Positions 10,405 through 27,715 of a stretch of 64,000 nucleotides of DNA are shown in pieces (position 1 is the stretch's first letter; every line of letters starts with the position of its first letter). The DNA comes from Comamonadaceae bacterium. Lineage in GTDB: Bacteria; Pseudomonadota; Gammaproteobacteria; Burkholderiales; Burkholderiaceae_C. A program made the position numbers and the translations under genes. A model generated the notes under the pieces. That model was not told the origin of the DNA, searched no databases, and worked only from the letters and a program-made list of their open reading frames with translations. The stretch spans positions 1 through 64,000 of the forward strand of contig CANGDZ010000003.1 of the NCBI GenBank assembly GCA_947452785.1, given 5' to 3'.

Positions 10405-10413
10405 GGCGCCGCC

Positions 10414-10632
10414 TCAGTAATGCGGCGGCAATTCGTCGCGCAAATTGCGCTCGCCCGAGGGGCCACCTTCAGGCATTTGACGGCGCAGTTGGCCGACCTC
10501 GGCCAGCAAGGCATCGATCTGGCGTTGTTGTTCGTAAACCTGTTGGTTCAATTGTTCGAGAAGATCTTCGGCGTAGCTGGATTTGATTTCCAGCGCCATC
10601 AGGCGCTCGTCGGTGTGGGATTCTTGAGACAT
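10414..10632 (-). CDS. slyX: SlyX family protein
   Basis: Short coiled-coil protein of 72 residues, the length of E. coli SlyX. It contains ERLMALEIKSSYAEDLLEQL and YEQQRQIDALLAEVGQLRRQM, two heptad-rich helices, and ends in the typical LPPHY. The start at 10632 (MSQESH) is preferred because AGGG lies seven bases upstream; the track start at 10686 adds 18 residues without family resemblance. Function of SlyX is unknown. Confidence 0.85.
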   Translation of the reverse strand: MSQESHTDERLMALEIKSSYAEDLLEQLNQQVYEQQRQIDALLAEVGQLRRQMPEGGPSGERNLRDELPPHY

Positions 10633-10713
10633 GGCCCTATTGGACATGATTTTGCAGCCATGCGGCCAGCATCGACTCACAATCATCTCATCATGCGAGT
10701 ACGCCCAAAACGG

Positions 10714-11898
10714 TCAGTACGATCTGGGCAGTCCTATCACGTGCTCTGCGATATAGGCCAGAATCAAATTGGTTGAAATCGGCGCGGTACGCTGCACCCG
10801 GGCTTCTCGCCATTTGCGCTCCACGTCATATTCTCGGGCATATGCAAAGCCACCATGGGTTTGCACACAAGCCTCTCCAGCCTCCCACGCCGCTTCTGCG
10901 CTGAGCAACTTGGACAAATTGGCCTCTTCACCACAAGGGTGACCAGCTTCAAACAGAGCAGCCGCCTTGCGCAGCATCAGTTCGGCAGCTTGGGATGCCG
11001 CATAGGCTTTGGCGATCGGAAACTGAATGCCTTGATTCATGCCAATGGGTCGGTCAAAAACCACGCGTTCATTGGCGTATTGGGCAGCTTTTCGGATGAA
11101 CCATTTGGCATCGCCGATCGATTCGTGTGAAACCAAAATTCGTTCAGCATTCATGCCGTCCAAGATATAGCGAAACCCTTTGCCTTCTTCGCCAATCAAG
11201 TTTTCTGCAGGTACGCGCAAACCATCGTAAAAAACCTCTGTGGTGTTGTGATTGATCATGGCCTTGATCGGCCGGATGGTCATGCCATGACCTATCGCGT
11301 CGCGCATATCGACCAAGAAAACTGAAAGACCTTCTGTTTTTTTGGCGACCCGCTCCAAAGGGGTGGTGCGCACCAACAACAGCATCAAATCAGAAAACAA
11401 CGCACGCGACGTCCAGATTTTTTGCCCATGAATCACATAGTGATCGCCATCTCGGATGGCACGCGTTTTGAGTTTGGTGGTATCGGTACCGGTCGTGGGT
11501 TCTGTCACACCAAACGCTTGTAATCGCAACTCACCTCTGGCAATGGCCGGCAGGTACTTTTCTTTTTGGGCAGCGCTGCCATGCCGCAGCAAGGTGCCCA
11601 TGGTGTACATCTGGGCATGCACTGCGGCCGCATTGGCACCACTGGCATGTATTTCTTCCAACACTACGCCCGCCGCACGCAAGGGCAATTGCGCACCGCC
11701 GTAGGCCTCAGGAATCAACGCGGCCAAATAACCCGCCTGCGTCAGCGCTTGGACAAAGGCCTGCGGATAGGCCTCTTGTTCGTCCAATGCCCGCCAATAA
11801 GAGCCTGGGAATGCCGCGCAAATTTTGCGGACACTTTCGCGAATTTCTGGAAAGTCGTCGCCCAAGGCGATGCTGATTTCTGGCAATTTCATAGTCAC
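10714..11898 (-). CDS. Acyl-CoA dehydrogenase (branched-chain type, paralogue 1)
   Basis: FAD-dependent acyl-CoA dehydrogenase of 394 residues. It shows LQAFGVTEPTTGTDTTKLKT and HGQKIWTSRA in the middle beta domain and CVQTHGGFAYAREYDVERKWREA near the C-terminus. The usual catalytic Glu of the IYEGTSE motif is missing (APISTN instead), while a Glu is present in NAERILV, the position used by isovaleryl-CoA dehydrogenase. A paralogue lies at 17733. It is the second gene of a TctC-ACAD unit driven from the first shared operator. Start GTG 11898 with GGGA eight bases upstream; ATG 11892 is an alternative. Confidence 0.88.
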   Translation of the reverse strand: MTMKLPEISIALGDDFPEIRESVRKICAAFPGSYWRALDEQEAYPQAFVQALTQAGYLAALIPEAYGGAQLPLRAAGVVLEEIHASGANAAAVHAQMYTMGTLLRHGSAAQKEKYLPAIARGELRLQAFGVTEPTTGTDTTKLKTRAIRDGDHYVIHGQKIWTSRALFSDLMLLLVRTTPLERVAKKTEGLSVFLVDMRDAIGHGMTIRPIKAMINHNTTEVFYDGLRVPAENLIGEEGKGFRYILDGMNAERILVSHESIGDAKWFIRKAAQYANERVVFDRPIGMNQGIQFPIAKAYAASQAAELMLRKAAALFEAGHPCGEEANLSKLLSAEAAWEAGEACVQTHGGFAYAREYDVERKWREARVQRTAPISTNLILAYIAEHVIGLPRSY

Positions 11899-11909
11899 AA
11901 TGGCATTCC

Positions 11910-12881
11910 CTATTCCGGCTTGATGCCAGCTTGCTGGATTAATTTTCCCCGCTGCTCTAATTCCTTGCGCACCTGCTCGGCAAATTCTTCAGAGGTATTA
12001 GCTACAACCATCAAGCCCATCCCATCCAATTTGATCGCAACTTCGGGATCGCGAAGCGTCTTGACCAATTCACCATGCAAACGCTTGCTCACAGCCACAG
12101 GCAACTTCGCTGGCGCAAAAAAACCGAGCCAGGAATTCATCTCAAAGCCTGGCAAAGTTTCTGCAAAAGTGGGCACCTGGGGCAAGCCAGGGTAACGGTT
12201 GGTTTGCGTGAATCCAATCGCCTTGAGTTTGCCGCTTTTGATGTGCGGCAGCACAGTGATCAAACTGGAAAAAACCATCGGAATTTGTCCGCCCAGCAGG
12301 TCCGTGATGGCCGGCCCCCCTCCGCGATAAGCCACATGGACCAGGGGAACCCCGATGAACTGTTTGAGCAATTCACCAGCGAGATGGTGTGGGGATCCTG
12401 CACCCGAACTCCCGTATGACAGCTGATCAGGATGCTGTTTCAAATAAGCAATCAGTTCGGCTAAGTTTTTGGCAGGAATTGCGGGATGGACGACCAAGAC
12501 GATGGGGTTGGCCACAGCCTGGGTCAAAGCCGTAAAGTCTTTGACAGGATGGAAGGTCGGCGATGCCGTCAAAAATACGTTTGCCGTATGCGTTGCATCG
12601 GTACCCACCATCAGGGTGTAACCATCGGGCAAGGATTTGGCGACAAAGTCTGAACCAATATTGCCACTGGCACCGCCTTTATTGTCAACGACCACCGGTT
12701 GCCCCATGCTGACAGACAGTTTTTGTGCCACGATCCGGCCCAGACTGTCGGTGGATGCGCCCGGTGGATAGGGCACAACCATGCGCAATGGTTTCGAGGG
12801 AAATTCTGATTGCGCCATGACTTGGGGCGCCAGCAGCATCAGGCCCCAAGCCAAACCCAACTTGAGAAAGTGACTGATCAT
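11910..12881 (-). CDS. TctC/Bug-family periplasmic substrate-binding protein
   Basis: Orphan TctC receptor, 323 residues, first gene of the leftward unit of the catabolic island. The signal peptide MISHFLKLGLAWGLMLLAPQVMAQ is followed by KPLRMVVPYPPGASTDSLGR and VDNKGGASGNIGSDFVA. The start at 12881 is supported by CAGGAG seven bases upstream; the track start at 12953 adds 24 residues that overlap the promoter. The acyl-CoA dehydrogenase follows after 11 bp, tying uptake or sensing of an acid to its oxidation. Confidence 0.9.
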   Translation of the reverse strand: MISHFLKLGLAWGLMLLAPQVMAQSEFPSKPLRMVVPYPPGASTDSLGRIVAQKLSVSMGQPVVVDNKGGASGNIGSDFVAKSLPDGYTLMVGTDATHTANVFLTASPTFHPVKDFTALTQAVANPIVLVVHPAIPAKNLAELIAYLKQHPDQLSYGSSGAGSPHHLAGELLKQFIGVPLVHVAYRGGGPAITDLLGGQIPMVFSSLITVLPHIKSGKLKAIGFTQTNRYPGLPQVPTFAETLPGFEMNSWLGFFAPAKLPVAVSKRLHGELVKTLRDPEVAIKLDGMGLMVVANTSEEFAEQVRKELEQRGKLIQQAGIKPE

Positions 12882-12956
12882 GAGGAATCTCCTGTAATTC
12901 AATTCATGCGGGGGTTCTTTCGTCCCCAAGACGGCCCCACCACCGCACGCCATTCA

Positions 12957-12975
12957 ATGTACGGACAATATAATG
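12957..12975. promoter_or_regulatory. Shared operator box A in divergent promoter
   Basis: ATGTACGGACAATATAATG lies between the divergent TctC (start 12881) and SDR (start 13019) genes. Read on the minus strand it is CATTATATTGTCCGTACAT, placed 16 bases after a perfect TTGACA (12994-12989), so it covers the -10 (TATATT) and start point of the TctC-ACAD unit. On the plus strand it contains a perfect TATAAT (12969-12974) for the SDR. The same 19-mer occurs in box C. Likely bound by the GntR protein at 21990 (inference). Confidence 0.75.
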
Positions 12976-13018
12976 ACCTGACTCACCTTGTCAATGATTC
13001 ACAGTCACGAAGGCTCAG

Positions 13019-13792
13019 ATGGAAAATGTCAACTTGCAAAGCCCCATGGCCGGGCGTACTGCCATCATCACCGGTTCTGGCCGCAACATTGGTCGCGCCA
13101 TCGCCCTATCGCTCGCGCACCAAGGTGCCAATGTGGTGGTGAATGGGCACAGTGATCGCGCGGCAGTAGACAGCGTCGTTAAGGACATCCAAGCAGCGGG
13201 TGGTCAAGCCATGGGGGTGATGGCCGATGTCTCGGAAGACAGTCAGGTCAGCAATTTAGTGCAACGCACAGTGGACCGCTTTGGCAGCGCCGACATGATC
13301 ATTTCCAACGTGGCCATTCGGCGTAAACAGCATTTCTTGGACATTTCACCGAAAGACTGGCAAGACGTCATACAAACCAATTTAACCCCCGCTTTTTACT
13401 TGGCAAGACACGCCATACCCCACATGCTGGAAAAAAAATGGGGCCGCTTGGTTTTGATTTCTGGTTTTGATGGTTTTTGGGGTCAAGTCCCCGAGAGAGC
13501 CCACAACATTGCAGCGAAATCAGGACTGCATGGTTTGGCCATGGCCTTGGCCCGGGAATTTGGTGCCCATGGCATCACGGCCAATACCGTGGCGCCAGGT
13601 GCCATTGACACGGTTCGCGACTGGACGCAATACACGCACCAGGAACGACAAAAAATTGAATCCGAAATTCCGCTCGGTCGCTACGGCAAACCCGACGAAG
13701 TAGCTGCCGCATGCGACCTCTTGTGCTCAGAACGGGGGGCTTTTATTTCAGGACAAGTCATTCATGTGAATGGTGGTCACTACATGTATTGA
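13019..13792 (+). CDS. SDR-family protein lacking the catalytic tyrosine
   Basis: Short-chain dehydrogenase/reductase fold of 257 residues. The cofactor motif is TGSGRNIGRA (TGxxxxIG) and the C-terminal part has NTVAPGAIDTVRDW and ISGQVIHVNGG, all regular. The active site is not: where the family has YxxxK, alignment through AHNIAAKSG gives Asn in place of Tyr, and the NNAG strand reads SNVA. It may be a degenerate enzyme or use another chemistry. Start ATG 13019 follows GAAGG. It is transcribed alone from box A, convergent with the acyl-CoA ligase. Confidence 0.82.
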   Translation: MENVNLQSPMAGRTAIITGSGRNIGRAIALSLAHQGANVVVNGHSDRAAVDSVVKDIQAAGGQAMGVMADVSEDSQVSNLVQRTVDRFGSADMIISNVAIRRKQHFLDISPKDWQDVIQTNLTPAFYLARHAIPHMLEKKWGRLVLISGFDGFWGQVPERAHNIAAKSGLHGLAMALAREFGAHGITANTVAPGAIDTVRDWTQYTHQERQKIESEIPLGRYGKPDEVAAACDLLCSERGAFISGQVIHVNGGHYMY

Positions 13793-13824
13793 CCCTGCAC
13801 ACAAAGCATCAAGGACGGCGGAAA

Positions 13825-15354
13825 TCAATTCAATTGCAGGCTAGGGTAAGCACCATCGATCAAAGTGAACTGCGCCAGCACCGCTTGACTCACTTTTTTT
13901 CGGCTCACCTTACCCTGCGCATTGCGCGCCAATAGGGGCACGGCCACATACAAACGCGGTTGCTTGTATTTGGACAAGGCCGCCACCCGTTGCCGGGCTT
14001 CGTCTTCCCATCCCGACCACACATCTTGCGCCACGGTGATGATCACTTCGCCCCAATAATCGGACTCCAGTGATGTGACGCACAGCGCACCATACAAAGC
14101 GCCCCCCGTTTGAGCGGCCTCAATCTCGTCGGGATTGACCCGGTAGCCGCCGGTTTTGATCACATCGGCAACGCGTCCGGTCAAGACCAAACGCCCGACT
14201 TCGTCGATAAAACCCAAATCGCCAGTGGCATGCCAGCCTTTTGCATCGTGGCCCATGACACCTTCTGGAAAGATCAAGCCAGCGCATTGCTGCGGCGCCC
14301 TTAAAAGGACCTCACCCTGCTCACACTCTTCATCTTCAGTGGCCGCCTCGATCCGCAACTCCACACCCGGCACCGGCCAGCCCACGCAGGCGCCGGTGGG
14401 TCTTGTGGGCTGCGCAAAATACGCATGCGTTTGCTCTGGGGTCATGACCGTGATGGGATTCACACACTCCGACTTGCCATAGGTGATGCGCACCACCGGG
14501 CCAAACATGTCGCAAGTGGCTTTGTATAAAGTCGCTGTCATTGCCTGCGTGCCCGTGAAAATACAGCGCAAGCCGGTAAAGCGTCGGCCAGCAAAGGCCT
14601 GCGTGATTTTGGCCAGTACCGTCGGCGGTGCAAAAATAGCTTGCAAGTCGCCACGGGTCAACAGGGGTTCTAATTTCTCGGTATCGACGCCGTCGTGCAG
14701 CAACACATGCCCACCCAGGTCACACCATGCAAAAGTGAGCAACGATGCACCATGCACAAATGGCGTCATCAACAACAAGGTGGCTCCCGCATCTGGCACA
14801 AAAGGCATGGCCGCTTTGAGCATTTGCTCCCCCACCCAGCGCGCACCATGGGTATAGATCACCCCCTTGGGTTTACCAGTGGTGCCCGATGTGAACAAGA
14901 TCCGGCCCCTGTCCGATGCAGGCACAACAGGCAGTGGACCGCTCAGTGCCATCTCCTGCGCGGGCCAAAGGTCCTCCACCAGCAAAGGCTGCATGCCGCA
15001 GGCGCGCACCTGCTCTGCCCGCTCAGCGCGGGTGATGACGGCTTGCACCTGGGCCAGACCACAACACCACTGCAGTTCGGGCTCCGTCAATGACCAGGAC
15101 AAGGGCGTTTCGGCGCCGCCCATCAAGCGGATGGCGTATGCGCAGCGAACCGCATCCAGTGAATTGGGCAACCACACGCCGATCGATTGACCCGATGCGA
15201 AACCCCGCGCCAAGAGTGCGTCCGCACATTGATGCGCCTGCTGGCTCAGTTGCGCGTAGCTGAGACTGCGCCCCTGGCCATCGGTCACGGCAGTCGCGCT
15301 GCCCATGCGGGCTGCCAACACCCTGAGTTGGTCAGACCAGGCGATCGTGTGCAT
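13825..15354 (-). CDS. AMP-dependent acyl-CoA synthetase/ligase
   Basis: ANL-superfamily ligase of 509 residues that would activate a carboxylic acid to its CoA thioester through an acyl-adenylate. The P-loop is FTSGTTGKPKGVIYTH, followed by ITYGKSECVNP, the ATP motif ATGDLGFIDE, hinge KTGGYRVNPDEIEAA and the C-terminal lysine region GKVSRKKV. The start at 15354 avoids 21 residues that overlap the TctC end. Last gene of the seven-gene leftward operon starting at 21902. Substrate unknown; it provides an activation route in addition to the two CoA-transferases. Confidence 0.87.
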   Translation of the reverse strand: MHTIAWSDQLRVLAARMGSATAVTDGQGRSLSYAQLSQQAHQCADALLARGFASGQSIGVWLPNSLDAVRCAYAIRLMGGAETPLSWSLTEPELQWCCGLAQVQAVITRAERAEQVRACGMQPLLVEDLWPAQEMALSGPLPVVPASDRGRILFTSGTTGKPKGVIYTHGARWVGEQMLKAAMPFVPDAGATLLLMTPFVHGASLLTFAWCDLGGHVLLHDGVDTEKLEPLLTRGDLQAIFAPPTVLAKITQAFAGRRFTGLRCIFTGTQAMTATLYKATCDMFGPVVRITYGKSECVNPITVMTPEQTHAYFAQPTRPTGACVGWPVPGVELRIEAATEDEECEQGEVLLRAPQQCAGLIFPEGVMGHDAKGWHATGDLGFIDEVGRLVLTGRVADVIKTGGYRVNPDEIEAAQTGGALYGALCVTSLESDYWGEVIITVAQDVWSGWEDEARQRVAALSKYKQPRLYVAVPLLARNAQGKVSRKKVSQAVLAQFTLIDGAYPSLQLN

Positions 15355-15374
15355 CAAGGGTGGTTCTGCTCGCG

Positions 15375-16337
15375 TCAATCGGCTTTGGCGCCAGAGGCTT
15401 TGACAGCGGCAGCCCAATTGGTCAATTCAAACTTGATGTGCTCGACGGCCTGTTCCGGCGTGGTTTCGAAAGTCTCCGCACCCAGTGTCATCAGGCGCTC
15501 TTTGATGGCGGGCTTTTGCAAAGCCAACACCAACTCCGCATTCAGTTTGGTAATGATGGGCTTGGGGGTTTGAATGGGCGCTAATAGGGCAGCCCATGTT
15601 TGGGCCGCAAAACCAGGCACGCCGGCTTCGGCCACAGTGGGCACATCAGGCATAGACACCGAGCGTTTTTTGCTGCCCACCGCAATGACTTTGAGTTTGC
15701 CGCTCTTGATGTGTGGAATAACGGGTGGGCCTGACTCAAACATCATGTTGATTTCGCCGCCGATCAAGGCGGTCAAGGCCGCCGCAGCACCTTTGTAGGG
15801 CACATGGGTAATTTGCATGCCAGTTTGGCTTTTGAGCATTTCCATGGTCAGGTGATTGGTCAAGCCACTGCCGCCAGAACCATAGTTGGTCTTACCCGGG
15901 TTTTGCTTGACATAGGCAATCAGCTCTTTCAGATTGTTGACCGGAAAGTCTTTGTTGATCACCAAAAACTGCGGCACGATCACCGCCGTCCCGATCGGCT
16001 GAAAATCCCGCAAGGTGTCATAGCTCAGTTTGGAATACAAGGCAGGATTGATGGTCAAGGGACCACTCGATGCCATCAGCAGGGTATAGCCATCGGCCGG
16101 CGCCACTTTGGCCGTCTCCATGCCCACAATCGCAGCCGCTCCGCCCTTGTTGTCCACATAAAAGCTTTGTCCCATCGTCTCAGTGAATTCCTGCGACAGG
16201 ATGCGGGCAATCACATCGGTGGCCTGCCCCACAGGAAAGGGCACGATGACCTTGACTGGTTTAGTGGGATAGGTCGATTGCGCCATTGCAGCGAAAGCCG
16301 ACAAGCCCAAGACCCATGCAATGAGGTATTTTTTCAT
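15375..16337 (-). CDS. TctC/Bug-family periplasmic substrate-binding protein
   Basis: Orphan TctC receptor, 320 residues, in the middle of the seven-gene operon. The signal peptide is MKKYLIAWVLGLSAFAAMAQ, and the pocket elements are VKVIVPFPVGQATDVIAR, VDNKGGAAAIVGMETA and HVPYKGAAAALTALIGGEI. Compared with its paralogues in this window the first loop has VGQATD rather than PGG-type, suggesting a different ligand fit. AAGGA precedes ATG 16337, preferred to 16361. It sits 20 bp before the ligase and 36 bp after the MmgE/PrpD gene. Confidence 0.9.
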   Translation of the reverse strand: MKKYLIAWVLGLSAFAAMAQSTYPTKPVKVIVPFPVGQATDVIARILSQEFTETMGQSFYVDNKGGAAAIVGMETAKVAPADGYTLLMASSGPLTINPALYSKLSYDTLRDFQPIGTAVIVPQFLVINKDFPVNNLKELIAYVKQNPGKTNYGSGGSGLTNHLTMEMLKSQTGMQITHVPYKGAAAALTALIGGEINMMFESGPPVIPHIKSGKLKVIAVGSKKRSVSMPDVPTVAEAGVPGFAAQTWAALLAPIQTPKPIITKLNAELVLALQKPAIKERLMTLGAETFETTPEQAVEHIKFELTNWAAAVKASGAKAD

Positions 16338-16373
16338 CTTGTTTCCTTGATGTGATTTCAAAAAATGGTTCTG

Positions 16374-17714
16374 TCAAAAGCGCAAATGCGATTGCGCAGT
16401 CAGCTCATTGAGCTTCTTTAACAACGCGCCGCCATCAATGGGCGCGGATTGAACGCAATCCAAAAACTTGGTCTGTAAGTCCAAGCCCTGCAAAGGCAAC
16501 ATGGCGTTACCGCGTGCAAAGCGGATGTCGCCAGAGTCGAGGACCGCGCCGTTGTGCAGGTGAATCTGCACACGGTCGTGCATGGAAAAAACTGGCTCAA
16601 TCGTGCACTGCGTATCTACCGTGCTGATCTTCACTTTGGACATGGCCTCTTTGACCGCAGGCTCCTGCACAAAGGCATCACTCAGTTCATTCAATCCGAC
16701 TTTGCCGCGTACCAAGGACGCAGCAACAGCAAACTCCATGCTGAATTTGGCTTCCAATCCGGTGTGCGGTTGGTGATTGCGCAACATCGAGGCCTGCGCA
16801 ACGCCAATGTGGGTTTGCACATGTGACACCTCTTTCAGATCAAAACCATGACTTGCAGATAAATCCAAGACACCGTCAATCACCCGGTGCGTGGCATAAC
16901 AGGTCGGGTATTTTTTGATGGACAACCCCGACTCTAGAATGCGAAATCGCTGACCCAAGTCCGCAGCAGCCGAGCTTCGGTCTACGGCCCCATGAGGTGA
17001 CAAGGCCGACAAGAAACCGGCCACGTGTTCCAGCGCATCGGGCGCAGCAGTCAGTCCTTTTTGCACCCACCGCACCGCTTCGATGGCGCACGCTGCGGCA
17101 CGTCCTGCGTGCAGGGGTTTGGTCATGGTGCCGAAATTGGCCACCAGGCCACTGGCCATGCTGGCCGCCAAGGCGATCACATGCTGGCATTGCTTCGCAT
17201 TCAGGCCATACAGATGCGCCACTGCAGCACTGGCACCGACGGTGCCCAACACCGCTGTAGGGTGCCAGCCTTTCAAATGATAGGCGTCTTTTTCACGAAC
17301 AAACAGTTCAGCCCACACCTCGTAGCCAATCAGATACGCACGCAAAGCCTGATCACCCGTGGCATTCACATGTTGACCAGCCGCCAACACGGCCGGCACC
17401 AGTACCGTGCTAGGGTGCCCGCCCAAGGCCACATCGTCAAAATCCAGTGCATGGCCTGCGGTGGCGTTGATCAAGGCGGCATCGCTGGCACTGGCCATGG
17501 CCGAGCCCATCAGCACCGCAGCCTCTTGAACGGATGATTGCTTGTCAGCCACAAAGGATTGCGCCATTCGCACCACCGGTTCGTCCCGACCGGCCAGCAT
17601 GGTGCCTAGGGTGTCGATGAAGCCCGATTGCACAATCTCGACCGCTCGGTCGGGCAAGGGCGCGAAATTCGGTTGGCTGGCGAACTGGGCCAAGGAAGCA
17701 GTTAAACCGGTCAT
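16374..17714 (-). CDS. MmgE/PrpD family protein
   Basis: Protein of 446 residues of the MmgE/PrpD fold, which includes 2-methylcitrate dehydratase and cis-aconitate decarboxylase. Recognisable blocks are GFIDTLGTMLAGRDEP, ALDFDDVALGGHPSTVLVPAVLA, GWHPTAVLGTVGASAAVAHLYGL and IKKYPTCYATHRVIDGV. The HP motif in ALGGHPS and the KxYP motif are typical. Members act on branched di- and tricarboxylates, which fits the TctC receptors around it, but the exact reaction is not predictable. 18 bp after the acyl-CoA dehydrogenase gene. Confidence 0.87.
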   Translation of the reverse strand: MTGLTASLAQFASQPNFAPLPDRAVEIVQSGFIDTLGTMLAGRDEPVVRMAQSFVADKQSSVQEAAVLMGSAMASASDAALINATAGHALDFDDVALGGHPSTVLVPAVLAAGQHVNATGDQALRAYLIGYEVWAELFVREKDAYHLKGWHPTAVLGTVGASAAVAHLYGLNAKQCQHVIALAASMASGLVANFGTMTKPLHAGRAAACAIEAVRWVQKGLTAAPDALEHVAGFLSALSPHGAVDRSSAAADLGQRFRILESGLSIKKYPTCYATHRVIDGVLDLSASHGFDLKEVSHVQTHIGVAQASMLRNHQPHTGLEAKFSMEFAVAASLVRGKVGLNELSDAFVQEPAVKEAMSKVKISTVDTQCTIEPVFSMHDRVQIHLHNGAVLDSGDIRFARGNAMLPLQGLDLQTKFLDCVQSAPIDGGALLKKLNELTAQSHLRF

Positions 17715-17732
17715 AAAGACCCCTTTCAGGGA

Positions 17733-18920
17733 TTAGAAAGAACGTGGCAAGCCCAACACATGTTCGGCCACATACGACAACACCAGATTGGTGGAAATGG
17801 GTGCGATTTGCATCAAGCGGGTTTCACGCCATTTGCGCTCCACGTCGTATTCGCGGGCATATCCGAAGCCGCCATGGGTTTGTAAACAGGCTTCAGCGGC
17901 ATGCCAAGCCGCCTCGGAGGCCAGCAGCTTGGCCATATTGACTTCAGGCGCACAGACCTTCCCAGCAGCAAACAAGGCGCTGGCTTTGCGCAGCAACAAA
18001 TCGGCTGCTTCGGTTTCCGCATGGGCGCGCGCAATCGGAAACGCAATCGCTTGGTTCTGTCCAATGGGGCGGTCAAACACCACCCGCTCTTTGGCGTAGT
18101 TCACGGCTGTTTTGACAAACCAGCGCGCGTCGCCAATGGATTCCGATGACACCAATATACGCTCAGCGTTCATGCCGTCCAGGATGTACCTGAAGCCCTT
18201 ACCCTCTTCACCGATCAGGTTTTCAGCAGGCACTTTCATGCCATCAAAGAACACTTCGGTGGCGTGGTGGTTGATCATCGCCTTGATGGGCTTGATCTCC
18301 AGCCCGTGACCCAGGGCTTCACGAATGTCGACCAAAAACACCGACAAACCTTCGGTTTTTTTGCTCACTTGATCCAAGGGTGTGGTGCGGGCCAGCAGCA
18401 GCATCAAATCTGAATGCAAGGCGCGTGAAGTCCACACCTTTTGCCCATGGACCACATAGTGATCGCCGTTTTTCACAGCGCGGGTTTTGAGTTTGGTGGT
18501 GTCGGTGCCGGAGGTTGGCTCGGTGACGCCAAAGGCCTGCAAACGCAACTCGCCTGAGGCAATTTTCGGCAAGTACTGCGCCTTTTGAGCGGGCGAACCG
18601 TGACGCAACAAGGTCCCCATGATGTACATCTGCGCATGACAAGCACCGGCATTGCAGCCCGCAGCATGAATCTCTTCCAAAATCACCGCCGCAGCGCGCA
18701 ATGGCAAACCGGAACCGCCATACTCTTGCGGAATCAAAGCGGCCAGATATCCGGCTTGGGTGAGCGTTTGCACAAACTCGGTGGGGTAGGCAATGCGCTC
18801 TTCCAGGTCGCGCCAATAAGCCCCTGGAAAACCAGCGCATATTTTGCGAATGCTTTCCCGTATTTCAGGAAAATCTTGGCCCAAATCCATTTGGACATCC
18901 ACTGCAGCAACTTCGGTCAT
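17733..18920 (-). CDS. Acyl-CoA dehydrogenase (branched-chain type, paralogue 2)
   Basis: Close relative of the enzyme at 10714 over the whole length (395 residues), with LQAFGVTEPTSGTDTTKLKT, HGQKVWTSRALHSDLM and CLQTHGGFGYAREYDVERKW. It also lacks the canonical C-terminal Glu (APISTN) and has NAERILV, the isovaleryl-CoA-dehydrogenase position for the base. The two copies could be isozymes, or subunits of one mixed tetramer. Fourth gene of the operon from 21902, 27 bp after the HMG-CoA-lyase gene. Confidence 0.88.
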   Translation of the reverse strand: MTEVAAVDVQMDLGQDFPEIRESIRKICAGFPGAYWRDLEERIAYPTEFVQTLTQAGYLAALIPQEYGGSGLPLRAAAVILEEIHAAGCNAGACHAQMYIMGTLLRHGSPAQKAQYLPKIASGELRLQAFGVTEPTSGTDTTKLKTRAVKNGDHYVVHGQKVWTSRALHSDLMLLLARTTPLDQVSKKTEGLSVFLVDIREALGHGLEIKPIKAMINHHATEVFFDGMKVPAENLIGEEGKGFRYILDGMNAERILVSSESIGDARWFVKTAVNYAKERVVFDRPIGQNQAIAFPIARAHAETEAADLLLRKASALFAAGKVCAPEVNMAKLLASEAAWHAAEACLQTHGGFGYAREYDVERKWRETRLMQIAPISTNLVLSYVAEHVLGLPRSF

Positions 18921-18947
18921 GGGATCAATACCTGTTTCATCTGAAGA

Positions 18948-19904
18948 TCAAGCCAGCTCGGATTCAAGTTGGCGACGACCGGGTTGGTCAAAGTGCTTGG
19001 GCAACCCAGCGCGGGCCAGCGCACCATGCATTTCTATGTCGGGCAAGGCTTTGTGCACCATCTCGCGGATGGCCAGAAGTTGCGCCAGGTCGACCCCAGT
19101 CCTCAAACCCATGGACTCGAGCATGAAACACAAATCGTCCATGACGATGTTGCCTGTGGCACCGGGGGCGAAGGGGCAGCCTCCCATGCCGGCCAATGAG
19201 GCATCGAAGCGGCGCACACCGCACTCGAGCGCCGCGGTGACATTGGCCAAACCAATGCCTCGCGTATCGTGAAAATGTGCGGCCACCGGAATCGGGCCAA
19301 CCGCATCCATCACCGCCTTGAACACGGTGCGCACTTGTTGAGGATCGGCATAACCCACGGTATCGGGCACCACAATTTCTTGCGCACCCGCCTCGGCAAA
19401 CGCTACGGCGTACTTCACCACATCGGCCACCGGAACACGACCCTCATAGGAGCAGCCAAAAGCTGTGGCCAAGCCGCCCACCAGAATGGGGCGGCGCTGC
19501 ACGGGTTGCGCACGCACCAACTCGACAATGCGGCTGAAGTCAGCCAGGGACTCTTCGCGTTCACGGCGCACATTTTTCAGGTTGTGTGTCTTGCTGACCG
19601 ACATTACAAAATTGAGTTTCTGCGCACCCAGCTCAATGCCGCGTTCTGCGCCACGGTAATTGGGAATCAGCGCCGAGACCATCAAGCCCGGAATCTTCAG
19701 GGCCTCGACGGTCACGGCCTCAGCATCCACAAACTGCGGCACCACGCGGGCCGGCACATAGGACGTCACTTCGATCTCAGACACGCCGGCGGCAGCTTCA
19801 GCCCGGATCCAAGCCAGCTTGGTCTCGGTGGGCATGAAAACGGGGTGAATTTGTAGGCCGTCGCGCAGGCCCACTTCACGCACATACACATCAATTTCTT
19901 GCAT
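18948..19904 (-). CDS. Hydroxymethylglutaryl-CoA lyase family enzyme
   Basis: TIM-barrel aldolase of the HMGL-like family, 318 residues. It starts VYVREVGLRDGLQIHP, has HFHDTRGIGLANVTAAL with the metal-binding histidines, and ASLAGMGGCPFAPGATGN, the HMG-CoA lyase active-site cysteine loop. The reaction expected is cleavage of a 3-hydroxy-3-methylacyl-CoA such as HMG-CoA to acetoacetate and acetyl-CoA. The track ORF starts at 20210, but ATG 19904 with AGGAG six bases upstream is the natural start. Third gene of the operon, 28 bp after a crotonase. Confidence 0.88.
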   Translation of the reverse strand: MQEIDVYVREVGLRDGLQIHPVFMPTETKLAWIRAEAAAGVSEIEVTSYVPARVVPQFVDAEAVTVEALKIPGLMVSALIPNYRGAERGIELGAQKLNFVMSVSKTHNLKNVRREREESLADFSRIVELVRAQPVQRRPILVGGLATAFGCSYEGRVPVADVVKYAVAFAEAGAQEIVVPDTVGYADPQQVRTVFKAVMDAVGPIPVAAHFHDTRGIGLANVTAALECGVRRFDASLAGMGGCPFAPGATGNIVMDDLCFMLESMGLRTGVDLAQLLAIREMVHKALPDIEMHGALARAGLPKHFDQPGRRQLESELA

Positions 19905-19932
19905 TTCAATCTCCTGAATAGGTGGGGCGCAT

Positions 19933-20730
19933 TCAGCGCCCCTTGAAGACGGCTTTACGTTTTTCATTGAAGGCCAAAACACCTTCGTAACGGTCTTCTG
20001 TTTCGACGAGGTGGTTGTAGGCCTCCACCTCGAAACGAAACGCCGTGCGCAATTCCATTTGATGGCCATAGCGCACAGACTTTTTGATTTGCCGCACAGA
20101 CAAGGGCGCATTGCCCGCAATGGTCTGCGCGGTTTTGATGGCCATCGGCAAGACTTCTGCCGGCTCGGCAATGGCATTGAAGATGCCCCACTCCAGCGCT
20201 TTTTGCGCATTGATGGGCTGGCCCGTCATCAGCATTTCTTTGGCTTTGCGCTCGCCAATGGCGCGCGGTAAGTTTTGTGTCCCCCCCGCGCCCGGCATGA
20301 TGCCCAAGGTCACCTCGGTCAAAGCAAAGCGCGCAGCGGTAGAGGCATAGGCAAAGTCGCACGACAACACGGTTTCAAAGCCGCCCGCATAGGCGTGGCC
20401 GTTCACTGCTGCAATTACCGGGATGGGCAGATCGGTCAGCGCCCAATACATGCGTTCAAACAACTGATGCTGTTTGATCCATTGGGCTTTGGTCATGCCA
20501 TTTCGCTCTTTCAGGTCTCCGCCCGCGCAAAATATTTTCTCGCCTGCACCGGTCAACACAATGCAGCGCACCTCGCCTGGATCTTCCGTCAATCGGGTCC
20601 ACAAATCCAGAAAGTCGGCCCCCATCTGTGTGTTGAGCGCATTGCCCACATGCGGGCGATTGAGCGTGATCAACAGCACATGGGGGTCCACCATGTGGGT
20701 CAATAAAGTTTCGTAAGCAGGCCAGTTCAT
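19933..20730 (-). CDS. Enoyl-CoA hydratase/isomerase family protein (crotonase 1)
   Basis: Crotonase of 265 residues. The oxyanion-hole blocks are FCAGGDLKE and NGHAYAGGFETVLSCD, and TEVTLGIMPGAGGTQNLPR follows. Both glutamates used for hydration are present (GGFE and TEVTLG), so it is a plausible enoyl-CoA hydratase, unlike crotonase 2 at 24886. The start overlaps the CoA-transferase end by four bases. In context it would hydrate the product of the acyl-CoA dehydrogenases to feed the lyase (inference). Confidence 0.88.
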   Translation of the reverse strand: MNWPAYETLLTHMVDPHVLLITLNRPHVGNALNTQMGADFLDLWTRLTEDPGEVRCIVLTGAGEKIFCAGGDLKERNGMTKAQWIKQHQLFERMYWALTDLPIPVIAAVNGHAYAGGFETVLSCDFAYASTAARFALTEVTLGIMPGAGGTQNLPRAIGERKAKEMLMTGQPINAQKALEWGIFNAIAEPAEVLPMAIKTAQTIAGNAPLSVRQIKKSVRYGHQMELRTAFRFEVEAYNHLVETEDRYEGVLAFNEKRKAVFKGR

Positions 20731-21902
20731 ACCTTGGTTTCTCCTGTTTTGAAAATCAGGTGTTGATGCTCCCCCAGCTTGGGAGGGGCAGAGAGGGATT
20801 GGGGTCGTTGGCCATCAAAGCGCAAAGGCAAGCCAAAAAACCGCATGCCGGTTCCCGGAACCTCCTGAATCAATTTCAGGGCTTGCGTTTGGGGGTGCGC
20901 CACCATTTGCGCAATGTTCTGCACGGCTGAGCAGGGAATGCCCGCATCTTCAAAACAGGCCACCCAGGTTTGCGTGTCCTGCGTTAGCAAGAGCGCATCA
21001 AGCATGTTGTACAACGCAGCCTGATGCTGAACACGGCTGGGGTTATCGACAAACCGGGGGTCTTCCAACCACTCGGGGTGACCTAGCGCGTTGGCCAGTC
21101 GTTTGAAAAGACCATCGCTGCCTGCAGCGACCACAATTTCGCCATCTTGCGTGGCGTAAGCCTTGTAGGGCGCGATGCCCGTTGCACCCGACCCTTGCTT
21201 TTGCGCTACCTGACCGGATGCCAGGTATTGCGAAGCCAGGAGCGAGACCCAGGAGGTGGCGGTTTCAAACAAAGACACATCCACCAAACGACCGACACCC
21301 GTTTTTTGGCGCTCATACAAGGCGGTCAGGATACCGATCATGGCCCATAGGCCGGTCCCCATGTCAACAATCGAAGCGCCGACCCGTACGGCGGGTCGAC
21401 CCTCCTCGCCTGTGGTGCTCATGATGCCGCCAAAGGCCTGCATCAAAGGGTCGTAACCGGGTCGGTCTTTGAGCGGGCCCTCACTGCCAAATGCGCCCAG
21501 ATTGCAATAAATCAGACTGGGCTTGTCGGCACATAAGCGGGGGCCGTCGATGCCGAGTTTTTCCACTTGGCCCGGTCGCAGGTTTTGCAACACCACATCG
21601 GCTTCGACCTGAATGAAGGCCTTGACCGCCTCGACATGCGCGGGGTCCCGGAAATTGCACACCACAGACGCCTTGTTTCGGTTCAGGGCCTGAAAAAGTG
21701 CAGAAGCGCCCTCCCAAAATGGAGGACCCCATTGGCGTGCATCATCGCCTTCTTGCTTTTCAATTTTGACAACCCGGGCACCCAGTTCACTCAAGATGTG
21801 TGCGGCGAAGGGCGCCGCCACGCTATGACCCAATTCGACCACTACCAAGCCCTCAAAAGGTCGGACGGCTGGTGCTTCAAGGGGCGAACGCGGTAAAGTC
21901 AT
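20727..21902 (-). CDS. CaiB/BaiF family (family III) CoA-transferase 1
   Basis: Family III CoA-transferase of 391 residues, first gene of the seven-gene leftward operon. The N-terminus reads LVVVELGHSVAAPFAAHILSELGARVVKIEK, the normal opening, followed by NRNKASVVCNF, LGAFGSEGPLKDRPGYDPLMQAFGG and VDMGTGLWAMIGILTAL with the conserved Asp. These enzymes move CoA between carboxylates such as succinate, oxalate or itaconate. It lies directly behind operator box B. Substrate unknown. Confidence 0.9.
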   Translation of the reverse strand: MTLPRSPLEAPAVRPFEGLVVVELGHSVAAPFAAHILSELGARVVKIEKQEGDDARQWGPPFWEGASALFQALNRNKASVVCNFRDPAHVEAVKAFIQVEADVVLQNLRPGQVEKLGIDGPRLCADKPSLIYCNLGAFGSEGPLKDRPGYDPLMQAFGGIMSTTGEEGRPAVRVGASIVDMGTGLWAMIGILTALYERQKTGVGRLVDVSLFETATSWVSLLASQYLASGQVAQKQGSGATGIAPYKAYATQDGEIVVAAGSDGLFKRLANALGHPEWLEDPRFVDNPSRVQHQAALYNMLDALLLTQDTQTWVACFEDAGIPCSAVQNIAQMVAHPQTQALKLIQEVPGTGMRFFGLPLRFDGQRPQSLSAPPKLGEHQHLIFKTGETKV

Positions 21903-21928
21903 GGCAAGAAAGATTCACAGAAAACTAA

Positions 21929-21939
21929 ATGTACGGACA
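21929..21939. promoter_or_regulatory. Shared operator box B in divergent promoter
   Basis: ATGTACGGACA between the CoA-transferase operon (start 21902) and the gntR gene (start 21990). On the minus strand it is TGTCCGTACAT, beginning 22 bases after a perfect TTGACA (21967-21962), with CAGAAT as -10 at 17 bases spacing. It shares the 11-base core with boxes A and C but not the CATTATAT flank. The location suits autoregulation of gntR and control of the operon. Confidence 0.7.
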
Positions 21940-21989
21940 TTCTGATCCGACATAATCACTTTGTCAACTTTTGACTCTCTATTGATTTC

Positions 21990-22757
21990 ATGCAGAAAAA
22001 TATCGACTCCAAACCCCGCTATCTGGTTTTGCGCGAACAGCTGGAACAGGACATCGCCAAAGGGGTTTACCCGGTCGGCAGCGTCTTTCCCACCGAAGGG
22101 CAACTGGGCCTGAGCTACCAAGTGAGCCGACATACCGTACGGGAAGCCACTCGCACCTTGGTCGAGCGCGGCCTGATCGCCAAACGGGCAGGTTTCGGCA
22201 CCGTGGTCTGCGCCAAACAAGCTGCAGCGCCCTACATTGCGGCCCTGGGCACCGTGGATGAACTGTTTAAATACACCCAAGCCACACGCTTGGAACTACT
22301 TGATCAGAAATGGATGTCGGCGGACATGGCCATGGCCATGAACCTGGACTGCGAGCGGGATTCGCAATGGCTGGTGCTGAACACGCAAAGGCTCACGCTG
22401 GACAATGCCACCGCCATTTCGTTCACGCAAATTTACCTGCGGCCTGAATTTGCAGCCATTGCGAATCAGCTCCATGGGCAGCACAAGAGCATTTTCAAGA
22501 TGCTGGAAGAGGATCATCAGCAACACATCGGACAGATCCAGCAAGACATCGAAGCCAAGCTGATGCCTTTGAAAGCGGCCAAGCTCCTGGATGTTCCGAA
22601 AAACAGCCCCGCCTTGCACGTGCGCCGAGCCTACCTCGATGCGAAAGGCCGGCTGCTGGCGGTATCCTCCAACCTGTATGCCGCCAGTCGCTTTCGGCTC
22701 AAAACCTCCTGGTTGCTGCCCGCCACACCGCGCAAGAAAAAACCAAGCCAACGCTGA
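21990..22757 (+). CDS. GntR-family regulator (UTRA/HutC type), predicted island regulator
   Basis: Transcription regulator of 255 residues. The N-terminal winged helix has LREQLEQDIAKGVYPVGSVFPTEGQL, recognition region YQVSRHTVREATRTLVERGL and wing KRAGFGTVV. The C-terminal half resembles the UTRA effector domain (ISFTQIYLRPEF and ALHVRRAYLDAKGR). It is divergent from the seven-gene operon with box B between, and its stop is immediately adjacent to the end of the SDR gene. It is the only regulator in the island, so it is the best candidate to bind boxes A-C. The effector is probably a pathway acid or acyl-CoA (inference). Confidence 0.9.
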   Translation: MQKNIDSKPRYLVLREQLEQDIAKGVYPVGSVFPTEGQLGLSYQVSRHTVREATRTLVERGLIAKRAGFGTVVCAKQAAAPYIAALGTVDELFKYTQATRLELLDQKWMSADMAMAMNLDCERDSQWLVLNTQRLTLDNATAISFTQIYLRPEFAAIANQLHGQHKSIFKMLEEDHQQHIGQIQQDIEAKLMPLKAAKLLDVPKNSPALHVRRAYLDAKGRLLAVSSNLYAASRFRLKTSWLLPATPRKKKPSQR

Positions 22758-23531
22758 TCACTGGAGCATGTTGCGTTTGTGCACGATGTTGACCACGGAC
22801 TCACTGCCAAACTCCGGGTGATGCAAATAAGCCAACACTTGGCGGGCGGCTTCGCTGGGCGAGGTCAATGCGCCTGTGGCTTGCAATTGGATGTAACGCG
22901 CTTTGTCGGGAAACAGTTCCGCATGGCCATTGCGCAATTCCTTCTGCATATCGGTATCGATCACGCCGGGCGCCAAAGAAACGATGTGCGCTCCCGCCGA
23001 ACGCCTTGCTTCATCCAAGGCCACACAGCGGCTGAAATGGTCCATTCCCGCTTTGGCGGCTCCGTACAAAGCCGCTCCAGCCATCGCGCGCTGGCTCATG
23101 CCTGACGAAATATTCAAGACCTTTTGCACGCTAGGCCAACCCTCAGTCGCTTGCAAAAATGCAGCCGTCAACTGCAAAGGCGCAATCAGATCCACGGTGA
23201 TGGCCTGCGCGATGGTCGCAGACGCAATGGTCTGCAATGGCGCCATGGCCCCCAAAGTGCCGGCATTGTTGATCAAGGTGACGCTCGCCCATGACCCTTG
23301 TTTTTTCGATGCAAGCCAAGCAGCCAAGCGCTGCGCCACAGGCGCAGGATCGGCCAGATTTTCGCACCACTGCACCAGCGAAACGCCCGCATTTTCGGCC
23401 GCCTGAGCCAACTCGGGCGATGCGGTTCTGGACAGGCACAGCACCTGATGGGTGGGCTTCAATAATTGACGGGCCATTTCCAAGCCCATGCCTTTGGAAG
23501 CCCCGGTGATGATGTAAATGTGTTGACTCAT
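22758..23531 (-). CDS. SDR-family oxidoreductase
   Basis: Short-chain dehydrogenase of 257 residues with complete catalytic residues: TGASKGMGLEMA cofactor motif, INNAG, NISSG and YGAAKAG (YxxxK). Start chosen at 23531 (MSQHIYI) because the fold begins at once; ATG 23552 is also possible and no strong ribosome-binding site decides. The track start at 23639 runs through box C. It is transcribed leftward from box C, convergent with gntR. It likely oxidises or reduces a hydroxy or keto intermediate; cofactor and substrate are not clear. Confidence 0.85.
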   Translation of the reverse strand: MSQHIYIITGASKGMGLEMARQLLKPTHQVLCLSRTASPELAQAAENAGVSLVQWCENLADPAPVAQRLAAWLASKKQGSWASVTLINNAGTLGAMAPLQTIASATIAQAITVDLIAPLQLTAAFLQATEGWPSVQKVLNISSGMSQRAMAGAALYGAAKAGMDHFSRCVALDEARRSAGAHIVSLAPGVIDTDMQKELRNGHAELFPDKARYIQLQATGALTSPSEAARQVLAYLHHPEFGSESVVNIVHKRNMLQ

Positions 23532-23602
23532 GGCGTTGGTGTGGGTGGTCATGGCGTGGCTTTTTGTTTGTGGTGATTTACCCTTAGGTGAGCCCAAGGC
23601 GA

Positions 23603-23639
23603 TTGACATTCCAAATGGGACATTATATTGTCCGTACAT
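23603..23639. promoter_or_regulatory. Shared operator box C with overlapping promoter
   Basis: On the plus strand a perfect TTGACA (23603-23608) is followed by TATATT after 15 bases, or TATTGT after 17, and CATTATATTGTCCGTACAT spans 23621-23639, covering the -10 and start point for the CoA-transferase 2 operon. The 19-mer is identical to box A. It also contains an inverted GGACA-N6-TGTCC. On the minus strand TATAAT can serve the SDR gene. Confidence 0.75.
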
Positions 23640-23686
23640 ATGGAAGACCCTCTTCAGGACCCTTCTGGCATCAGGACAAAGTTTCT

Positions 23687-24883
23687 ATGAATCCCAAAAG
23701 CTCCGGCTCCCAGGCGTTGAAACGCTTCAAAGTATTGGACTTGACCCGCATCCGCTCAGGCCCAACCTGTGTGCGCACCTTGGCCGATTTTGGCGCTGAA
23801 GTCATTCGCATTGAATCGCCTGCAGGACTCGACCCCAATGAAGGCGCTTTGGGGGGGCGAGAAACGTATGACATGCTCAATTTGCATCGCAACAAACGCT
23901 CCATCACCCTGAATCTGAAAGAGCCCGAAGCCAAGGACATTTTTTACAAACTGGTGGCCCAGGCTGACGTGGTGGTCGAAAACTACCGCCCCGATGTGAA
24001 GTTCCGTTTGGGCATCGACTACGACACCTTGGCCGCCCTAAACCCTCGCATCATTCTGGCCAGCATTTCGGGTTTTGGCGAAGATGGCCCCTACCGCAAG
24101 CGGCCCGGTTTTGACCAAATTGCCCAAGGTATGGGCGGCATGATGTCGGTCACCGGTATGCCAGGACAAGGCCCTGTTCGCGCCGGCATCGCGATTGCCG
24201 ACTCGGGCGCTGGCGTTTTTGCCGCCACGGGCATTTTGATTGCGCTGCTGGAGCGAGAGAGTTCAGGCCATGGCCAATGGGTGCAGTCCAATCTGTTGCA
24301 ATCGATGATCAGCCTGTGCGATTTTCAGGCGGCTCGGTTTTTGATCGATGGCGAAATCCCGGAGCAAAGTGGCAATGACCACCCGTTTGCCACGCCGATG
24401 GGCACGTTCAAAGCCAGCGATGGCTATTTCAATATCGGCGCCTCAGGCACCAACCAGTACCGGGCCTTGTGCGATGTGCTGGGCCGCACAGATTTGCGTG
24501 ATGAGCCCCGGTACCAAAAAAATCCCGAACGCCTGAAAGACCGCGAATACCTGAACGCCGAACTGAACAAAGGCTTCGCCACCCAAACCACCGCGCACTG
24601 GGTGCAGGCCCTGAACGATGCCGGTGTGCCTTGCGGCCCCATCTACAACATGCAACAGGTCTTTGAAGACCCTCAAGTACAACACCTGAATGCGGCCGTT
24701 CCCTTGAAGCACCCCAGACGGGGAGACATCCGCGTACTGGCCCAGCCCTTCAAACTCTCTCGCACGCCCAGTTCAGTGCGCTTCACCCAGCGCGATCTGG
24801 GCGAGGACAATGAGGCGATTCTGAGTGAACTGGGTTATTCGCCCGAATCCATTGCGCAATTTAAAGTAAAGAAAGTGATCTGA
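23687..24883 (+). CDS. CaiB/BaiF family (family III) CoA-transferase 2
   Basis: Family III CoA-transferase of 398 residues, first gene of the rightward four-gene unit. Blocks are FKVLDLTRIRSGPTCVRTLADFGAEVIRIE, HRNKRSITLNLK, ISGFGEDGPYRKRPGFDQIAQGMGG and IADSGAGVFAATGILIALLER. It clearly differs from CoA-transferase 1, so the island can handle two acids or two steps. ATG 23687 has AGGA upstream; the longer track ORF begins in the promoter. The hydratase-like gene follows after 2 bp. Confidence 0.9.
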   Translation: MNPKSSGSQALKRFKVLDLTRIRSGPTCVRTLADFGAEVIRIESPAGLDPNEGALGGRETYDMLNLHRNKRSITLNLKEPEAKDIFYKLVAQADVVVENYRPDVKFRLGIDYDTLAALNPRIILASISGFGEDGPYRKRPGFDQIAQGMGGMMSVTGMPGQGPVRAGIAIADSGAGVFAATGILIALLERESSGHGQWVQSNLLQSMISLCDFQAARFLIDGEIPEQSGNDHPFATPMGTFKASDGYFNIGASGTNQYRALCDVLGRTDLRDEPRYQKNPERLKDREYLNAELNKGFATQTTAHWVQALNDAGVPCGPIYNMQQVFEDPQVQHLNAAVPLKHPRRGDIRVLAQPFKLSRTPSSVRFTQRDLGEDNEAILSELGYSPESIAQFKVKKVI

Positions 24884-24885
24884 CC

Positions 24886-25686
24886 ATGAGCAACACCCCT
24901 GAAACTGCAGGCCGATTGGACCACCATGTCGAAGGCCATGTGGGTTATGTGAGCTTCAACAATCCCGCCAAATTCAATGCCATGAACTACGACATGTGGT
25001 GCGCCCTGCCTGTGGCCATGCAGGCCTTGGTTGACGACCCTCAAGTGCGCTTGATCGTCTTGCAAGGCGCTGGAGAAAAAGCCTTTGTCTCGGGCGCCGA
25101 TATTTCGCAATTCAACACCCACCGCAATGGCGACGCCAGCACCCATTACAACGAAGCCACACAAGCCGGCTACGCCTCTGTACTGGACTGCCCTAAGCCA
25201 ACCTTGGCCAAAATTCGCGGCATTTGCATGGGGGGTGGTTTAGGCCTGGCCCTCAATTGCGATGTCCGCATGGCGGCAGCGGATGGCAAATTCCGCATGC
25301 CCGCTGGCCGCTTGGGCTTGGGTTACGCCTTTGATGGCGTCAAGCGATTCACGGAAGTGTTGGGCACCGCCAATACCGCCGATTTGTTTTTCAGTGCGCG
25401 CATTTTTGGCGCCGAAGAAGCTCTGCGCATCGGCTTGCTCAAACAGGTTGTTGCGCTGGATGAGTTTGATGCGGTGGTCAGCGCCTACGCGCAAATGGTG
25501 TGTGAAAACGCCCCTTTGACCTTGGCCGCCGCCAAGCGCTCCTTGCTGGAGTTGCGCAAGAACCCCCATGAACGCGATCTGCAAGGCGTCAACGCCATGG
25601 TGAACGCTTGCTTCGTCAGCGAAGACTACAAAGAAGGTCGTAAAGCCTTTGCAGAAAAACGCGTTCCTCAATTTCAAGGCCGTTAA
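24886..25686 (+). CDS. Crotonase-superfamily protein without canonical glutamates (crotonase 2)
   Basis: Crotonase fold, 266 residues. The oxyanion-hole segments FVSGADISQFN and IRGICMGGGLGLALNCD are present. The positions that carry the two hydration glutamates in enoyl-CoA hydratase are Leu (GGGLGLA) and Gly/Arg (PAGRLGLGYAFDG). This suggests a different reaction, for example isomerisation, hydrolysis or decarboxylation, or reliance on other residues. It is encoded 2 bp after CoA-transferase 2 and 11 bp before a TctC gene. Confidence 0.87.
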   Translation: MSNTPETAGRLDHHVEGHVGYVSFNNPAKFNAMNYDMWCALPVAMQALVDDPQVRLIVLQGAGEKAFVSGADISQFNTHRNGDASTHYNEATQAGYASVLDCPKPTLAKIRGICMGGGLGLALNCDVRMAAADGKFRMPAGRLGLGYAFDGVKRFTEVLGTANTADLFFSARIFGAEEALRIGLLKQVVALDEFDAVVSAYAQMVCENAPLTLAAAKRSLLELRKNPHERDLQGVNAMVNACFVSEDYKEGRKAFAEKRVPQFQGR

Positions 25687-25697
25687 GGAGTTACACC

Positions 25698-26660
25698 ATG
25701 CGATCACGTACAGGTTGGTTCATCGCCTTAGGGCTGGTGGTGGTCTGCGCGGCATCAGCCCAGACTTTTCCGAACAAACCGATCAAATTCGTGGTGGGCT
25801 ACCCCCCTGGGGGATCCGGCGACTTTGTCACGAGAACCATTGGCGAGGCCATTGCTATAGAGCTGGGACAAACAGCCGTGATCGACAACCGACCGGGCGC
25901 AGCGGGTAATCTGGCCAGTGATATTGTGAACAAATCACCGGCCGATGGCTACACCCTGCTGGTGGGCAGCAATCCCTATATCAACAAGGCGTTGTACAAA
26001 AAATTGCCGTATGACATCGAGAAAGATTTCCAACCTGTCACCCTGCTGGGCAACGGGCCCATGGTAATTGCGGTGAACAGCAGTTTGCCCGTGCACAACA
26101 TCAAAGAACTGATTGCCTACGCGAAAAAGAATCCCGACAAACTCAACTTTGGCTCCAGCGGCAATGGCTCGGCGCCTCACTTGGCGGGCATTTTGTTCAA
26201 CAGCGTAGCCGAGACGGACATGCTGCACATTCCTTTCAAAGGCGGCGCCCCGGCGGTGCAGTCTTTGATCGCAGGTGACACGCAGGTGATTTTCGGCACA
26301 TCGCCGGTGGTGCTGCCGCAAGTGCGCGGCGGTCGAGTTCGCCCTTTGGCCATCACCACGCAAGAACGCTCTGCCGCCATTCCGAACATCATGGGCATGA
26401 AAGAGGCGGGCTTGGCGGACTACAACATCAGTTTTTCATTTGGTCTTTACGCCCCCATCAAAACGCCACCAGACGAATTGAAAAAAATCTTTGATGCCGC
26501 CGTGAAAGTGCTCAAGCGCCAGGACATCCGCGAGAAATTAGCCACCCAAGGCATGGACCCTTTGCCCAACAACTCACCCAACGAGTTCCGTTTGCAAAAC
26601 CAGCGTGAAGCGCCCATGTGGAACAAACTGATTGAGGCCTCTGGCGCCAAGGTGGACTGA
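25698..26660 (+). CDS. TctC/Bug-family periplasmic substrate-binding protein
   Basis: Orphan TctC receptor, 320 residues, third of the island. A signal peptide MRSRTGWFIALGLVVVCAASAQ precedes FPNKPIKFVVGYPPGGSGDFVTR; later come IDNRPGAAGNLASD and HIPFKGGAPAVQSLIAGDTQ. AAGGAG lies upstream of the ATG. The quinone-oxidoreductase-type gene starts one base after its stop. Probably binds the acid whose CoA ester is formed by the preceding transferase (inference). Confidence 0.9.
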   Translation: MRSRTGWFIALGLVVVCAASAQTFPNKPIKFVVGYPPGGSGDFVTRTIGEAIAIELGQTAVIDNRPGAAGNLASDIVNKSPADGYTLLVGSNPYINKALYKKLPYDIEKDFQPVTLLGNGPMVIAVNSSLPVHNIKELIAYAKKNPDKLNFGSSGNGSAPHLAGILFNSVAETDMLHIPFKGGAPAVQSLIAGDTQVIFGTSPVVLPQVRGGRVRPLAITTQERSAAIPNIMGMKEAGLADYNISFSFGLYAPIKTPPDELKKIFDAAVKVLKRQDIREKLATQGMDPLPNNSPNEFRLQNQREAPMWNKLIEASGAKVD

Positions 26661-26661
26661 G

Positions 26662-27639: not shown

Positions 27640-27715
27640 ACGCCTTCGCTTGAGCGAAATGGGGTACTCTGCTCATCACTGAGTTGCCCTCACGTCATTT
27701 GAAATCGGAGTTTCC

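Follow-up and report, generated by a model that had tools for sequence, protein, structure and literature searches.

An island of acyl-CoA genes in a Comamonadaceae bacterium, lying within the window (the whole 64,000-nucleotide stretch of DNA analysed here), carries one short box at three divergent promoter regions, which raises the question of what reads this box and to what effect. The original prediction linked it to a GntR/UTRA regulator encoded at the middle promoter. The sequence comparisons described here make it highly probable that the box is the operator of this regulator, a HutC-type repressor that would block the three promoters until released by a metabolite.

Organization of the island and its promoters

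The genes of the island are arranged as follows:

10714..11898, minus strand: acd1, acyl-CoA dehydrogenase
11910..12881, minus strand: tctC1, Bug/TctC-type solute-binding protein (likely start 12881; mechanical ORF start 12953)
13019..13792, plus strand: sdr1, short-chain dehydrogenase, divergent from box A
13825..21902, minus strand: operon B, encoding caiB1, ech1, HMGL-like lyase, acd2, mmgE, tctC2 and AMP-dependent acyl-CoA ligase
21990..22757, plus strand: gntR, HutC-type regulator with GntR (PF00392) and UTRA (PF07702) domains
22758..23554, minus strand: sdr2, short-chain dehydrogenase, divergent from box C (start likely near 23554)
23690..27639, plus strand: operon C, encoding caiB2, ech2, tctC3 and zinc-type quinone oxidoreductase/ADH

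Six transcription units are counted, rather than the five proposed originally, and they are served by three divergent intergenic regions. Box A lies between tctC1-acd1 and sdr1, box B between operon B (caiB1 to the ligase) and gntR, and box C between sdr2 and caiB2-ech2-tctC3-ADH. As had been predicted, a single regulator gene, gntR, is seen in the island, at the middle promoter. A second GntR/UTRA-like regulator, only distantly related to that of the island, is encoded elsewhere in the window (48741-49439). Near the island, an ORF at 8001-9383 without an NCBIfam match at 1e-20 resembles a DUF1446/AtuA-type protein; its counterpart in another genome (G008, locus L058) is grouped with rlmN, slyX and m20.

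The regulated genes look like those for uptake (Bug/TctC), CoA activation (type III CoA-transferases and the AMP ligase) and later catabolic steps, the last resembling a route in which a branched organic acid is dehydrogenated, hydrated and cleaved by an HMG-CoA-lyase-like reaction. In family searches, the type III CoA-transferases are nearest to succinate-HMG/glutarate transferases and YfdE. The combination of CoA-transferases with an acyl-CoA dehydrogenase, a hydratase and an HMG-CoA-lyase-like enzyme suggests, as a guess, that the pathway substrate is a branched dicarboxylic acid. The enzyme set would fit 3-methylglutarate/HMG or methylsuccinate-type acids, which stay a guess given that the nearest relatives of the MmgE/PrpD protein in such searches are iminodisuccinate epimerase and cis-aconitate decarboxylases.

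The box and promoter at each of the three regions are:

12957..12967, minus strand: operator box A, TGTCCGTACAT, immediately 3' to the -10 hexamer (TATATT) that serves tctC1-acd1
12967..12994, minus strand: promoter A, TTGACA-16-TATATT, with 11/12 consensus bases, the top site of the scan
21929..21939, minus strand: operator box B, TGTCCGTACAT, between the divergent caiB1 and gntR
21939..21967, minus strand: promoter B, TTGACA-17-CAGAAT, from the sigma-70 scan
23629..23639, plus strand: operator box C, TGTCCGTACAT, before caiB2
23603..23631, plus strand: promoter C, TTGACA-17-TATTGT, from the sigma-70 scan (alternative TTGACA-15-TATATT)

The coordinates and strands of all three boxes agree exactly with those first reported. 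When positions 10000-28500 were scanned for sigma-70-like promoters, the three best sites were promoters A, B and C, the total of promoter-like sites in this interval being not above chance. The box begins 21 bases past a perfect TTGACA at A, 22 at B and 20 at C, within the 20-22 bases predicted, a position over the -10/start region. Its first T doubles as the final base of the -10 hexamer at A (TATATT) and B (CAGAAT). Boxes A and C do share 19 identical bases, CATTATATTGTCCGTACAT, which are made up of the -10 plus the operator.

The genome-wide search proposed along with the prediction was carried out, and in the 3,496,414 bases of the genome the only exact copies of TGTCCGTACAT are these three. 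No copy arose in 60 dinucleotide shuffles of the window. Single-mismatch matches elsewhere in the genome number 25 beyond the three exact copies, which is the chance level indicated by a reversed control pattern (28); one of them, on contig C100, overlaps the start of a lon-like protease gene. One near match in the window, at 36107-36118, falls within an alkB-like coding region and was for that reason discarded as an operator candidate. Extra sites in two other genomes, one within a coding frame (G463:C31) and one at G459:C105, had no recognised acyl-CoA neighbours and are probably chance matches.

Conservation of the box in orthologous islands

Eight orthologous islands were compared, that of the window included (the others being L009-L014 and L055, with L056 and L013 being one contig), and their GntR proteins are 76-99% identical. 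When column conservation was computed without the near-identical copy L009, the columns of boxes A, B and C were conserved at 100%, 100% and 96% and the flanks at 55-63%, values that are not fully independent because all islands come from one related group (Comamonadaceae MAGs). Boxes B and C are present in 8/8 islands, and box A accompanies the A unit in every case where that unit was located. Box B is invariant in the eight islands and box A in six genomes. The sole change in the 10-base core is a T to G at position 7 of box C, found in three islands, and since it turns the core into the perfect palindrome TGTCCGGACA, it points to an operator with dyad symmetry.

Two of the six genomes with an invariant box A have a relocated A unit. 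Neither G460 nor G463 has this unit in the island: G460 carries it on a different contig (L147), and G463 on the same contig at a distance of about 44 kb (L148); both retain CATTATATTGTCCGTACATT. In a further island (L055) the caiB1 operon was not found beside gntR and box B still stands before gntR, an arrangement that favours gntR autoregulation. Related islands thus bear out the expectation that an operator would be kept: the box persists at the three promoters and follows the A unit when it moves.

These comparisons also bear on whether the 19 bases common to A and C, -10 included, merely record a recent duplication of promoter DNA, with no selection for an operator. The greater variability of C in other islands would be in keeping with such an event, but the identity ends at the -10 plus operator and does not extend into the surrounding DNA, which is unrelated; in six genomes the same 19-20 bases of A are kept while its flanks drift, and some islands keep the C operator although their C -10 differs from that of A. 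A box drifting at the rate of its flanks would favour duplication, and the opposite is observed, leaving this explanation scarcely credible.

The regulator and the sites beside its relatives

The island GntR protein matches the N-terminal GntR winged helix PF00392 at 52 bits (cut-off 27) and the C-terminal UTRA effector domain PF07702 at 69.1 bits (cut-off 23.8). Its top NCBIfam matches are the PhnF and HutC models, with scores (96 bits for TIGR02325 and 84.7 bits for TIGR02018) so far under the curated cut-offs (156.8 and 220, respectively) that it is neither PhnF nor HutC proper. The best PDB match is NagR/YvoA of Bacillus subtilis, with which it shares the two-domain layout, the GT-N4-AC operator spacing and the wing glycine (Gly69 of NagR, Gly68 here). 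G-4 and G-5 are read in the NagR-DNA structure by Arg48 and Arg38, respectively (PMC4333415). Arg48 aligns with Arg47 of the island protein, at the start of the recognition helix, and G-4 is invariant in the operators; Arg38 aligns with Gly37, and the island operator has T at -5. Unlike the dre sites of NagR/YvoA, the island operator therefore lacks G-5, just as the protein lacks the corresponding arginine. On this alignment, box and protein would fit the NagR-DNA contacts, with the G-4 reader kept and the G-5 reader lost. The two systems differ further in the operator centre (TA for NagR, CG in the island) and in their targets, which are N-acetylglucosamine genes for NagR and acyl-CoA catabolism for the island GntR.

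According to the main text of PMC4494728, operators of the HutC subfamily have GT and AC four bases apart, and this spacing is found in the island as GT-CCGT-AC and GT-CCGG-AC. As in the HutC regulons described there, one palindromic site occupies a divergent intergenic region adjoining the regulator gene. Unlike them, the island core GT-NCGN-AC falls outside the consensus GTMTAKAC, its central TA being CG in all orthologues and distant variants; since that text presents GTMTAKAC as a consensus with exceptions, a central TA is no strict mark of membership. The main text of the same paper makes no mention of Comamonadaceae. Our literature search found no paper describing this operator and none joining TGTTCGAACA with GntR; publications containing TGTCCGTACA or TGTCCGGACA concern, by title, primers, p53 sites and the like, with no visible bearing on bacterial GntR operators.

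Does the operator follow the protein family beyond the island? In 37 loci of distant GntR/UTRA relatives in other contexts (at most 45% identity, about 29-44%), WTGTNCGNACAW was found in 16, whereas dinucleotide shuffles predict 0.26 and no match to any of four rearranged control patterns was seen; the other 21 have no such box within the stretch searched. For many of these sites the distance to the downstream gntR is 36-130 bases. In L067, L072, L075, L076, L081, L084 and L085, gntR is immediately preceded by a tandem pair of ATGTTCGAACAW-type palindromes with a spacing of about 25 bases, which suggests cooperative binding by two dimers; other distant loci carry TTGTCCGTACAA or TTGTCCGGACAA. 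A neighbouring GntR clade (L018-L020 and L059; 36-44% identity), three members of which reside in a similar tctC-caiB-ech-HMGL-acd-mmgE/sdr island, carries the operator CGGACGTCCG instead, overlapped by GTCCGGAC in 3/4, indicating that the operator changes with the protein. Loci L052-L054 of this clade have CGGACGTCCG too, there in a parallel island with tctC on one side and sdr on the other.

Conservation, the site retained by the moved A unit and the variants in distant clades strongly support the predicted reading of the shared box by GntR; binding itself we infer from them. We consider it somewhat better than an even chance that an undescribed, broad Burkholderiales clade of GntR/UTRA repressors reads GT-NCGN-AC and controls many different catabolic islands of the Bug/CoA-transferase type, with outer bases and targets, unlinked monooxygenase genes among them, diverging from one clade to the next.

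Sites beyond the island and the proposed mechanism

A fourth putative operator, TTGTCCGTACAA, was found on another contig of the window's genome (G000:C91:11326-11337, equivalent to L045:3027-3038). A conserved TGTAAGAT immediately precedes it, and the start codon of a luciferase-like monooxygenase gene, divergently arranged with a TctC gene, follows after about 35 bases; the nearest solved structure to the monooxygenase, a distant match, is 3,6-diketocamphane 1,6-monooxygenase. The site is kept in four other island-bearing genomes (G458, G459, G460 and G015), but has degenerated in G463 and is missing from G461. It is therefore present in 5/7 genomes with the island gntR versus 0/7 relatives that lack this regulator, in all seven of which the same monooxygenase gene has no box. 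No other close relative of the island GntR was found in the window's genome, which makes this protein the likely reader of the fourth site, and it probably controls the unlinked monooxygenase gene as well. The supposition that the regulon is self-contained is thus not supported, although the island is still its core. Box variants also precede similar AMP-ligase genes with acyl-CoA or transport genes alongside in G459 and G462 (L145:3211 and L149:3471; TTGTCCGGACAT and, on the opposite strand, TTGTCCGTACAA), and this ligase, not seen in the window's genome, is a possible fifth member.

These distributions weigh against the box being bound by a different factor, encoded elsewhere, whose site is near gntR by coincidence. 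Ten-base palindromic sites are used by other regulators too, and GntR binding is something we infer; yet variants of the box stand beside distant GntR genes of the same clade in unrelated gene contexts, and the monooxygenase site occurs only in genomes with the island gntR. We regard a different factor as very improbable.

Assignment of the box to GntR leaves the sign of regulation, for which the position over the start region suggests repression. In the mechanism that we propose, a GntR dimer would, in the absence of inducer, occupy TGTCCGTACA, overlapping the downstream edge of each -10 and the start region at the three strong TTGACA promoters; because of this position it would block RNA polymerase at the tctC1-acd1, caiB1 and caiB2 operons, and gntR itself would probably be limited as well. 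GntR would then be released by a pathway metabolite acting as ligand of the UTRA domain. The claim that the box promoters govern all units of the island is better supported for the tctC1-acd1, caiB1 and caiB2 sides; regulation of sdr1, gntR and sdr2, which face away from the strong promoters, is possible and less well supported.

An island GntR acting at the same box as an activator or dual regulator is unlikely. Conservation of a binding site does not by itself reveal the sign of regulation, and at A a conserved ATTATA reads TATAAT on the reverse strand, so the box could there fall between the -35 and -10 of a divergent sdr1 promoter and act differently. Set against this, the box occupies the usual position for repression, at the -10/start of all three strong promoters, as does the fourth site just after TGTAAGAT, and the best-studied relatives, NagR and DasR, are repressors (PMC4333415, PMC4918961).

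The repressor model, taken with the comparative sequence data, describes a real, conserved regulon of a well-known kind, with one regulator and at least four putative operators; it departs from the ordinary only modestly, in that operators centred on CG would form a class belonging to one clade of HutC-type regulators. Four operators and one regulator give a precise regulon for an organic-acid pathway, to which the inducer, once identified, would point, while the related operators would extend the DNA-reading rules of HutC-type regulators to CG-centred sites.
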